Shown: positions 8,519 to 29,877 of the stretch, in pieces
Layout: every line of letters begins with the position of its first letter
Numbering within the stretch: position 1 is the stretch's first letter
Source: Turneriella parva DSM 21527
GTDB lineage: Bacteria > Spirochaetota > Leptospiria > Turneriellales > Turneriellaceae
Direction: 5' to 3'
DNA length: 64,000 bases
Assembly: GCF_000266885.1 (NCBI RefSeq)
Contig: NC_018020.1
Coordinates: 4,154,001 to 4,218,000, forward strand
The notes under the pieces: model-generated
Database searches by the model: none
What the model was told of the DNA's origin: nothing
The model's input: the letters and a program-made list of their open reading frames with translations, nothing else
Program-made: the position numbers and the translations under genes

Positions 8519-8659
8519 AGGCTGTCCCGCAACCCGGTGATTTGGCATGCATGCGCTGTTGCGAGACGAGCGGCGGCAGGCCGTTTCGGCCGCTTTAACA
8601 GGCGTTTGCGCACGCAAATGCCGAGGCCGACGCTGGTCTTCCGGGTTACGGGACAGCCT
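8519..8659. repeat. Palindromic multi-hairpin element, copy 1
   Basis: The 19-base ends AGGCTGTCCCGCAACCCGG (8519-8537) and 8641-8659 are inverted repeats with one mismatch. Between them lie two further hairpins: GGCCG/CGGCC around TTT (8579-8591) and the TTTGCG/CGCAAA stem (8604-8617). The core at 8571-8608 matches 29242-29280, inside rsmG, at about 32 of 39 aligned positions. The right end covers the last four codons and stop of the minus-strand gene at 8646. It looks like a small mobile or structured repeat. Confidence 0.75.
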
Positions 8660-28205: not shown

Positions 28206-28969
28206 ACGGCCACCTTCTGCCGGCTGAGCAGATCTTTTGCGAGTGTCTTATAGGCGATTGCCCCCGTCGACTGCGGATCGTAAACACTGATCGGCTGCCC
28301 GAATGACGGCGCCTCAGACAGTTTGACGTTTCGCGGTATAATCACGTCATATACCTGTTTCTTGAAATGTTCGCGCACATCTTGCACCACCTGAGAGGCA
28401 AGGCGCGTGCGCGCATCGAACATGGTGAGCAGCACACCCTCGATTTCGAGCGCAGTATTGAGTTTCGTGCGCACAAGATTGATGATGCGCAAGAGCTGCG
28501 TTAACCCTTCGAGCGCGAAATATTCGCACTGCAGCGGAATCAGCACCGAATTGGCAGCGGTGAGCGCGTTGATGGTGAGAATGCCGAGGCTTGGCGGGCA
28601 GTCGATAAGCACAAAATCAAAATCGTTGGCGAGTGTTTTGAGCCGGTCTTTGAGCACGAAGTCGCGATTCGCGTTGTCGCGCACGTCAATTTCAAAACCC
28701 GAAAGGTCGATATTCGCGGGTATTATTTTCAGGTTCGGCTGATTGGTCGGTTGCGCCGGCGAGGTATCGTCGGTACCAATCAGCCAGTGGTATATGGTAT
28801 TCTTAGCCTCGGCGATGTTAAGGCCGAGGCCGCTGCCGGCATTACCCTGAGGGTCGATATCGATGATCAGCACGCGCTGCCCTTCGTTCGCGAGGTATGC
28901 GCCGAGATTGATCGTCGTCGTCGTTTTGCCGACGCCACCTTTCTGGTTTGCCAATGCCACTACTTTCAT
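28202..28969 (-). CDS. parA: Chromosome partition ATPase ParA
   Basis: A 255-residue deviant Walker A ATPase (KGGVGKTTTTINLG at residues 10-23), with Walker A' IDIDPQGNAGSGLG and Walker B FVLIDCPPSLG. It binds DNA without sequence specificity in the ATP state and moves ParB-parS complexes. The start codon overlaps the rsmG stop (TAATG), and the end overlaps parB. The order rsmG-parA-parB is often near the replication origin, so the origin may not be far away, although no dnaA or mnmG is seen. Confidence 0.97.
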   Translation of the reverse strand: MKVVALANQKGGVGKTTTTINLGAYLANEGQRVLIIDIDPQGNAGSGLGLNIAEAKNTIYHWLIGTDDTSPAQPTNQPNLKIIPANIDLSGFEIDVRDNANRDFVLKDRLKTLANDFDFVLIDCPPSLGILTINALTAANSVLIPLQCEYFALEGLTQLLRIINLVRTKLNTALEIEGVLLTMFDARTRLASQVVQDVREHFKKQVYDVIIPRNVKLSEAPSFGQPISVYDPQSTGAIAYKTLAKDLLSRQKVAV

Positions 28970-29877
28970 TATGACTCTGTATCAACGAGCGTGTCGGCTG
29001 AGATTTTTTTCCACGAGCGGGGGTACGGTTTTTTAGCAGCCGTTTCGTGCGCGAACGTATAAAGCCCCCGCGGCAATACACTCGCAGCGGATTCAAATTT
29101 AACAAATGATTCTGTTTTGTACCCGAGGTCTGTCACACGCTGCTCTCCAGCGGCAGAAAATGGCACTCTCTGAGACCGCCAGTAAAGCAATTTTGGCGAT
29201 TGCAAAGCAATCGCCTCAGACCGCAACGGCCCCGCAAAATTCGGCGGGCAGCCCGCTTCGGGCGCTTTAGCAGAAGTTTGTTGCGGCGTTTTCTGAAACG
29301 ACGCGGGCAAACTTCGAGGCCCGTCCGATTTTGCGGATCCAGGCCGTTGCCGGTCTTTTGGCGCTGCGCTCAACACATGCAAAGCCAACTCCAGTGAAGC
29401 GAGTATCTTTCTGAACGCTCTGAAAACGACAACGTCGGCCTTCGGCGCGGCAGCGTATTTTTTGGGAAAATCCTGCACGACGCCGTGGTAGACCGTGACG
29501 TTACTCAATCCTAATTTTGCTGCTGCAGACTCTGCAAAACGGCAACGCTTCTCTTGCGCATCGAGCAGGTGAAATTTGTGCTGCGGATAGAGAATCGCAA
29601 GGGGTAGCGACGGCAAACCTGAACCGGCGCCGAGATCGAAGACATTGAGCCCTTCGCCCGCATTCAGCGGAAATCGCTCGCGTGTTTCGGGTGCAATCGC
29701 GGGCAACACCGAATCAAAAATATGCCGCAATTCAAGGTCGGCGCGCGTACACTCACCGATAAAACCTGCGGGCATTGCTTCGGCTTCAAGCAGATCGGCG
29801 AAGGTCTGCAGGTTGGCGAGTACGGGCGCTGTCAGATGCGCAGACAGCGGGGCGTAGGCGATATCGGCGACAGACAC
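28969..29877 (-). CDS. rsmG: 16S rRNA (guanine-527-N7)-methyltransferase with in-frame insertion
   Basis: Methylates G527 of 16S rRNA with SAM. Family parts are ELRHIFDSVL, the SAM-binding motif VFDLGAGSGLPSLPLA, LLDAQEKRCRF and the catalytic-region segment VVVFRAFRKIL. RsmG is normally 205-240 residues; this one is 302. The excess is about 57 residues (173-229), rich in Pro, Ser, Lys and Gln, lying before LLYWRSQR where the fold normally continues. That segment is encoded by a palindromic DNA element, copy 2 of the repeat found near 8.6 kb. The frame is kept through it, so the protein may still work. Confidence 0.9.
   Translation of the reverse strand: MSVADIAYAPLSAHLTAPVLANLQTFADLLEAEAMPAGFIGECTRADLELRHIFDSVLPAIAPETRERFPLNAGEGLNVFDLGAGSGLPSLPLAILYPQHKFHLLDAQEKRCRFAESAAAKLGLSNVTVYHGVVQDFPKKYAAAPKADVVVFRAFRKILASLELALHVLSAAPKDRQRPGSAKSDGPRSLPASFQKTPQQTSAKAPEAGCPPNFAGPLRSEAIALQSPKLLYWRSQRVPFSAAGEQRVTDLGYKTESFVKFESAASVLPRGLYTFAHETAAKKPYPRSWKKISADTLVDTES
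29191..29361. repeat. Palindromic multi-hairpin element inserted in frame in rsmG, copy 2
   Basis: The segment contains a 9-bp hairpin GGCGATTGC/GCAATCGCC (29195-29215). Long outer arms follow: GACCGCAACGGCC at 29219-29231 pairs with 29342-29355 apart from one bulged base, and CCGCAAAAT at 29232-29240 pairs with 29328-29336. Inner hairpins are GCGGG/CCCGC, GCCCG/CGGGC and GAAGTTTG/CAAACTTC with CGTTT/AAACG inside. The core matches the intergenic element at 8571-8608. Its length, about 171 bases, is a multiple of three. The exact ends are estimated from where RsmG homology stops. Confidence 0.75.

Follow-up and report, generated by a model that had tools for sequence, protein, structure and literature searches.

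The rsmG (gidB) gene of Turneriella parva carries a clean in-frame insertion of a non-coding palindrome, which is a member of a new, lineage-restricted family of MITE-like elements with a conserved junction and freely exchanged arms. The family is confined to the Turneriella group, its branched fold is maintained by compensated changes, and subfamilies in two relatives are flanked by target-site duplications. That the rsmG insert represents a mobile structured repeat seems to us highly probable. The whole reading, i.e., a lineage-restricted non-coding MITE-like palindrome moved in trans, with a core carried as a structural passenger folded in one strand, and inserted in rsmG, we consider probable.

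The analysis covered a window of 64 kb, positions 4154001–4218000 of the 4,384,015-bp chromosome (the T. parva genome has 4,409,302 bp in two replicons). In the window, rsmG is located at 28969–29877 on the minus strand and encodes a 302-aa ribosome-modifying enzyme with a Pfam GidB match of 81.7 bits. An earlier note, made from the sequence alone, had described this protein as overlong, with extra residues between conserved parts, and had set an alignment with relatives as the test of a clean insertion. Comparison with the orthologues of four congeners (G001, G002, G005, and G006; 63–70% identical) bore this out: the relatives can be aligned on both sides and lack residues ~173–227, so that a segment of ~165 bp within 29191–29363 is cleanly inserted in T. 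parva and is not common to the four. The insert is also open in the rsmG frame and a multiple of three, as the note had stated; if bounded by the direct repeats at its edges, it has 165 nt (157 + 8), equal to 55 codons. These repeats are exact and 8 bp long (CGCCAAAA in the rsmG sense, TTTTGGCG on the plus strand), with copies at 29191–29198 and 29356–29363. Excision of the 165 nt in silico gave HVLSAAPKLLYW, the corresponding sequence of the relative being HILRPTGSPKVLYW, and deletion of the element with one repeat copy restored SAA-PKLLYW. We regard CGCCAAAA as no more than a candidate target-site duplication, because another well-defined insertion, in an rRNA spacer, shows none and because the F hairpin adjoining the element shares four of its bases.

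The two halves of RsmG that flank the insert are about equally conserved, so there is no decay of the gene. In an AlphaFold model based on a five-sequence alignment (mean pLDDT 74.5), strands and helices follow each other in a methyltransferase-like order, and the insert is a single disordered stretch, residues 177–223, preceding the strand 229–234; pLDDT falls below 50 for residues 177–197 and 199–223. As modelled, about 55 amino acids are added to a surface loop and the gene is left unbroken, and the insert would be tolerated because it lengthens a surface linker. The wealth of nested hairpins noticed earlier in this segment was evident from folding, both as DNA (z of 29191–29363, –8.95 for the plus and –7.75 for the minus strand; none of 200 shuffles was equal) and as RNA (z = –6.9 for 29160–29380 vs. 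chance).

The earlier note had placed the element at 29191–29361. This extent required correction, as the element proper and the adjoining hairpin together occupy ~29195–29355. All its parts are given here on the plus strand, in which the core (29236–29332; match to covariance model R1 of 67.8 bits, E ~1e-13) is antisense to rsmG and has the design P1-A-hpA-GCTTTAGCA-hpB-GAG-P1′. Folding placed the adjoining F hairpin, GGCGATTGC-AAA-GCAATCGCC, at 29195–29215. The outer stem P0 has its 5′ arm at 29219–29231 (DNA fold) and its 3′ arm, after a bulge at 29337–29341, at 29342–29355 (fold), while stem P1 is formed by the arms 29232–29249 (CCGCAAAATTCGGCGGGC; fold and R1 alignment) and 29319–29336 (R1 alignment). 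Two hairpins recognized from the fold, hpA (GCCCG-CTT-CGGGC, 29251–29263) and hpB (29273–29315, with an inner hairpin in the rsmG copy), are separated by the invariant linker GCTTTAGCA at 29264–29272, which can be read as a mini-hairpin GC-TTTA-GC plus A; the junction bases GAG follow at 29316–29318. The linker and GAG were delimited by alignment of the copies.

A blastn search with the rsmG segment gave many short matches in the T. parva genome. Model R1, built on 12 copies with both window copies excluded, found about 50 copies there, including those in rsmG and at 8.6 kb; the genome-wide search for further copies which the earlier note had proposed was therefore productive. Of the two outcomes by which the note would have had its idea fail, a long segment shared by relatives and a lack of other copies, neither was observed. 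The copies are non-coding and ~140–200 bp long. The second one in the window is situated between convergent genes at 8519–8659 (plus strand), with 19-bp ends AGGCTGTCCCGCAACCCGG / CCGGGTTACGGGACAGCCT and a core at 8564–8639 (plus strand; R1 match 78.9 bits). Its kinship to the rsmG segment, previously put at 32 of 39 bases, proved exact (39 columns, 32 identities), and both match R1. Each of the seven Turneriella genomes searched has copies of the element, as does one neighboring genus of the same taxonomic family (G009); across another 40 genomes of this class, the covariance model detected none. A stricter sequence pattern run against 84,980 species genomes matched MAGs of Spirochaetota alone, including one with the title Turneriella sp., and the scan of IMG/VR with the sequence pattern gave no match. 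Rfam returned only neighboring tRNAs and nothing above the gathering score for the family, in agreement, as far as Rfam goes, with the statement in the note that no such family was known in Leptospirales. Sister cores carry different linkers, GTTTTGCGA or GTTTTGCAA / GGC and GTTTCGCGTGTA / CAGCG (L094, L101, L186, L203, L204; L124; L068:935–1007), and the family is therefore wider than R1.

What defines the family is a set of invariant unpaired junction bases combined with variable, compensated arms. The unpaired bases are the best-conserved part of the core, and the linker GCTTTAGCA occurs in 98 of the 110 copies in which a linker could be parsed. Across 51 T. parva copies, standard pairs make up 96.1% of pair cells, and double-sided changes number 291 against a shuffled mean of 71.5, with 28 one-sided cells; slid controls were merely 37–48% paired. 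This alignment was fitted to R1, and an unfitted alignment of 12 copies agrees with it (92.9% paired, with 60 double-sided changes against 2 one-sided); the counts are not independent, because the copies share descent. At orthologous sites of related species the stem sequences differ and pairing is kept. Eight double-sided changes distinguish L062 from L179, beside a 93%-identical protein, and seven distinguish L064 from L142, between tRNA genes. Whole arms change as well: hpA is replaced between L114 and L178, and L107 and L177, beside a 99%-identical gene, differ by an extra arm exactly at TTTAG^CAG. An arm of this kind (~TCGTCGACCAAGAGGTCAACGACCTATTGG) is seen at exactly this point of the linker in L122, L177, L197, and L202, and other arms in L205 and L185. 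One or two more hairpins, e.g., ACCCG-TCTT-CGGGT and CTCCG-CTT-CGGAG, take the place of GAG in L125, L126, L181, and L183. The T. parva copy L053 consists of one element nested in the hpB of another, and the same core was found within outer frames having quite different terminal repeats.

Mobility is supported by the filled and empty states of the rsmG and 23S-5S sites, together with near-identical copies bearing duplications in two relatives. In the 23S-5S spacer of G001, the element is present in one rRNA operon and not in the other (L269, L272); the spacer of G003 is filled (L270), and both T. parva operons are empty (L268, L271). No target duplication was found at the G001 spacer insertion. 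The sequence ACCATATT beside the spacer copies was discarded as a target duplication, since it is also present in empty operons, and a hairpin equivalent to the F hairpin pre-exists in the empty operon of G001. Terminal inverted repeats are seen as the 19-bp ends of the 8.6 kb copy and in frames of G004, G005, and G006. In G004 and G005, near-identical copies lie at unrelated sites in frames whose terminal repeats are long (GGGCGCGGGATTTGTTAGGGGGG; GGGTGCGGGCGCGTTTTGTGGGT), with flanking target duplications of 8–9 bp, e.g., GGTTGCTG, CTGGATAG, and GGGGTCGAG. A direct-repeat search across the flanks returned some repeat for 65 of 127 copies, and also for 92 of 285 mismatched pairs; we therefore relied only on repeats located at consistent structural edges. 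A coreless 126-bp form in G005 (L234, L235) has transposed as well, each copy with its own 9-bp duplication, and the core is thus dispensable for movement by the G005 ends. These coreless elements were rejected as pre-insertion sites, as they retain part of P1 and show an apparent deletion between GATT repeats.

As to the mover, a Y1 transposase (PF01797) is encoded by T. parva, G001, G002, G005, and G006, and was not found in the incomplete assemblies of the carriers G003, G004, and G009. A Y1 (RAYT) enzyme was rejected in this role, since the gene was not found in these three carriers and no core lies near the three T. parva genes. Judged by open-frame positions in partial genomes, the solitary ends have no autonomous element or transposase beside them.

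Of 48 classifiable T. parva copies, 23 lie between convergent genes; of the gene junctions in the window, as defined by a crude gene caller, 11 of 64 are convergent (Fisher P = 8e-4). Most T. parva copies are at gene 3′ ends. Copies between tandem genes do not favor either orientation (11 sense, 10 antisense), and by eye the positions of the T. parva copies show no replication-strand bias. In ~20 copies the left edge of the element falls on the stop codon of the upstream gene; a TAA or TAG exactly at this edge, TAR^CAG, is seen in the T. parva copies L051, L056, L069, L076, L078, L111, L117, L121, and L123. As judged from open frames and recognizable flanking protein, only one of 51 T. parva copies, that of rsmG, is inside a protein gene. 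A further in-frame antisense copy was detected in an Rhs-type gene of G004 (L132, C107; core at 1139–1207), between the motifs SADTVIP and GFNRYAY. L072 and L101 were dismissed as in-gene insertions, since the element precedes the gene in both and it is only the open frame that is long.

To consider which strand folds, we turned to mispairs and loops. Read in core orientation, G.T mispairs exceed A.C by 34 to 7 in T. parva and by 34 to 4 in the relatives, and it thus appears to be the core-orientation strand that folds. Since the bias is weak when recent copies are considered (raw events, 39 vs. 24), the strand argument leans mainly on the loops and on older copies. When hpA has 7 bases, it reads GC-GNA-GC in 32 of 35 copies (GAA 21, GCA 7, GGA 3, GTA 1); hpA with a longer stem mostly has a TTT, CTT, or TCTT loop. 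GC-TTTA-GCAG loops occur 97 times among 133 copies, which are related by descent. DNA mini-hairpins with a GNA loop and two or more closing G-C pairs are those described as ‘extraordinarily stable’ (PMC4686876). The GC-GNA-GC and GC-TTTA-GC motifs suggest, as far as sequence can tell, that the fold is formed in one DNA strand. Folding of the core as single-stranded DNA is favored by these 2-bp mini-hairpins of the junction, with their GNA and TTTA loops, and by rare mispairs being G.T rather than A.C; we regard it as the most likely option, with a confidence about evenly balanced.

A structured RNA would be read from the same features in another way: the transcribed core would act as a processing site, a terminator, or a stabilizer of mRNA 3′ ends, and this function would keep the arms paired, leaving the rsmG copy as a stray. 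The strand asymmetry of mispairs fits such a role, as do the strong placement at gene 3′ ends and the compensation in orthologous stems, including those in tRNA and 23S-5S spacers with the core in the sense strand. Yet the balanced orientation between tandem genes, the scarcity of G.U pairs (~2.6% of cells), the 2-bp GNA/TTTA mini-hairpins, which suit DNA more than RNA, the lack of an Rfam match, and the absence of the element from both T. parva rRNA operons speak against it, and we deem an RNA function unlikely, if worth keeping in mind. To the same extent we doubt that the family is an ordinary MITE made of inverted ends and filler, its branched core being a roleless by-product of palindrome repair. 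The G004/G005 terminal repeats with their duplications and the transposed coreless form are as expected of such an element, and template switching can homogenize palindromic arms; however, identical junction bases in several unrelated outer frames and in G009 are unexpected of filler, and it is the unpaired junction bases that are most conserved. It is very improbable that the rsmG segment represents an ordinary protein extension peculiar to this lineage and hairpin-rich by chance, since, for all its open frame and the conservation of the remaining RsmG, it matches a dispersed family antisense to rsmG with the score given above, is predicted to be disordered, and is absent in four relatives.

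The reading we prefer, a mobile palindrome with a folded passenger core, would work as follows. A transposase working on the outer inverted ends would move the copies in trans; where 8–9 bp duplications occur, it would presumably be of the DDE type. The core may travel as a structural passenger, of which one strand folds. Complementarity of the arms would be kept by selection on the fold, aided by template-switch repair of imperfect palindromes, and intergenic copies may persist at the 3′ ends of genes since they do no harm there. A bolder proposal, which we hold to be somewhat less likely than either the RNA or the ordinary MITE explanation, is a class of elements defined by a folded DNA junction and not by sequence. 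GNA/TTTA mini-hairpins on one strand would serve as a recognition hub, arms would be freely exchanged, gained, and lost, insertion would take place beside existing hairpins, and one core could reside in unrelated terminal-repeat frames or be placed alone.

Several known systems resemble the Turneriella element in part. Rickettsia palindromic elements are ~150 bp long, belong to several families, and are found in-frame in protein genes (review PMC10969869). The earlier note had pointed to this likeness, which holds in that a dispersed palindrome entered rsmG in frame and fails for the habitat: Rickettsia elements reside predominantly inside open reading frames, whereas the element described here, in another phylum, is mostly intergenic, with the single in-gene copy among 51. 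It also differs in its invariant unpaired junction bases, its freely changing arms, and, in some relatives, outer terminal repeats with target duplications. Because the habit of living inside genes, by which the Rickettsia elements are described, is not shared, we do not assign it to them. Bacterial MITEs such as ERIC and Correia/NEMIS are likewise short, non-coding, intergenic, and lineage-specific with inverted ends, but they are recognized by a conserved sequence, while in Turneriella the stems turn over, the junction and pairing stay, and one core occurs in several terminal-repeat frames. An effect on transcript processing is known for both NEMIS and ERIC (PMC10969869). REP/BIME elements with RAYT (Y1) share hairpins at gene 3′ ends and a one-strand fold; the Turneriella core is, however, branched and 70–100 nt long, and in three carriers the Y1 transposase was not found. 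Integron attC sites are recognized via a one-strand fold and have a variable stem sequence, and recognition of this kind would be a mechanistic parallel. The RYYYAAC/GTTRRRY core sites of attC are, by reading, absent from the invariant bases GCTTTAGCA and GAG of nearly all copies, no cassette arrays were seen, and the Turneriella junction has three to six arms. Fungal mitochondrial double-hairpin elements are also mobile hairpins with stems that vary with compensation; they belong to another genetic compartment and have no sequence in common with the Turneriella element, which has a conserved multi-arm junction.

In-frame lengthening of proteins by palindromic elements is thereby extended to a second, unrelated lineage of bacteria, and RsmG, an assayable enzyme, offers a direct comparison of one filled site with four empty ones. 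Across ~130 copies in eight genomes, nearly all of the stem sequence turns over and a few unpaired junction bases stay. The family therefore offers a test of whether the shape of DNA can maintain repeat families, and of whether the perfection of palindromes arises via selection on the fold or via template-switch repair.
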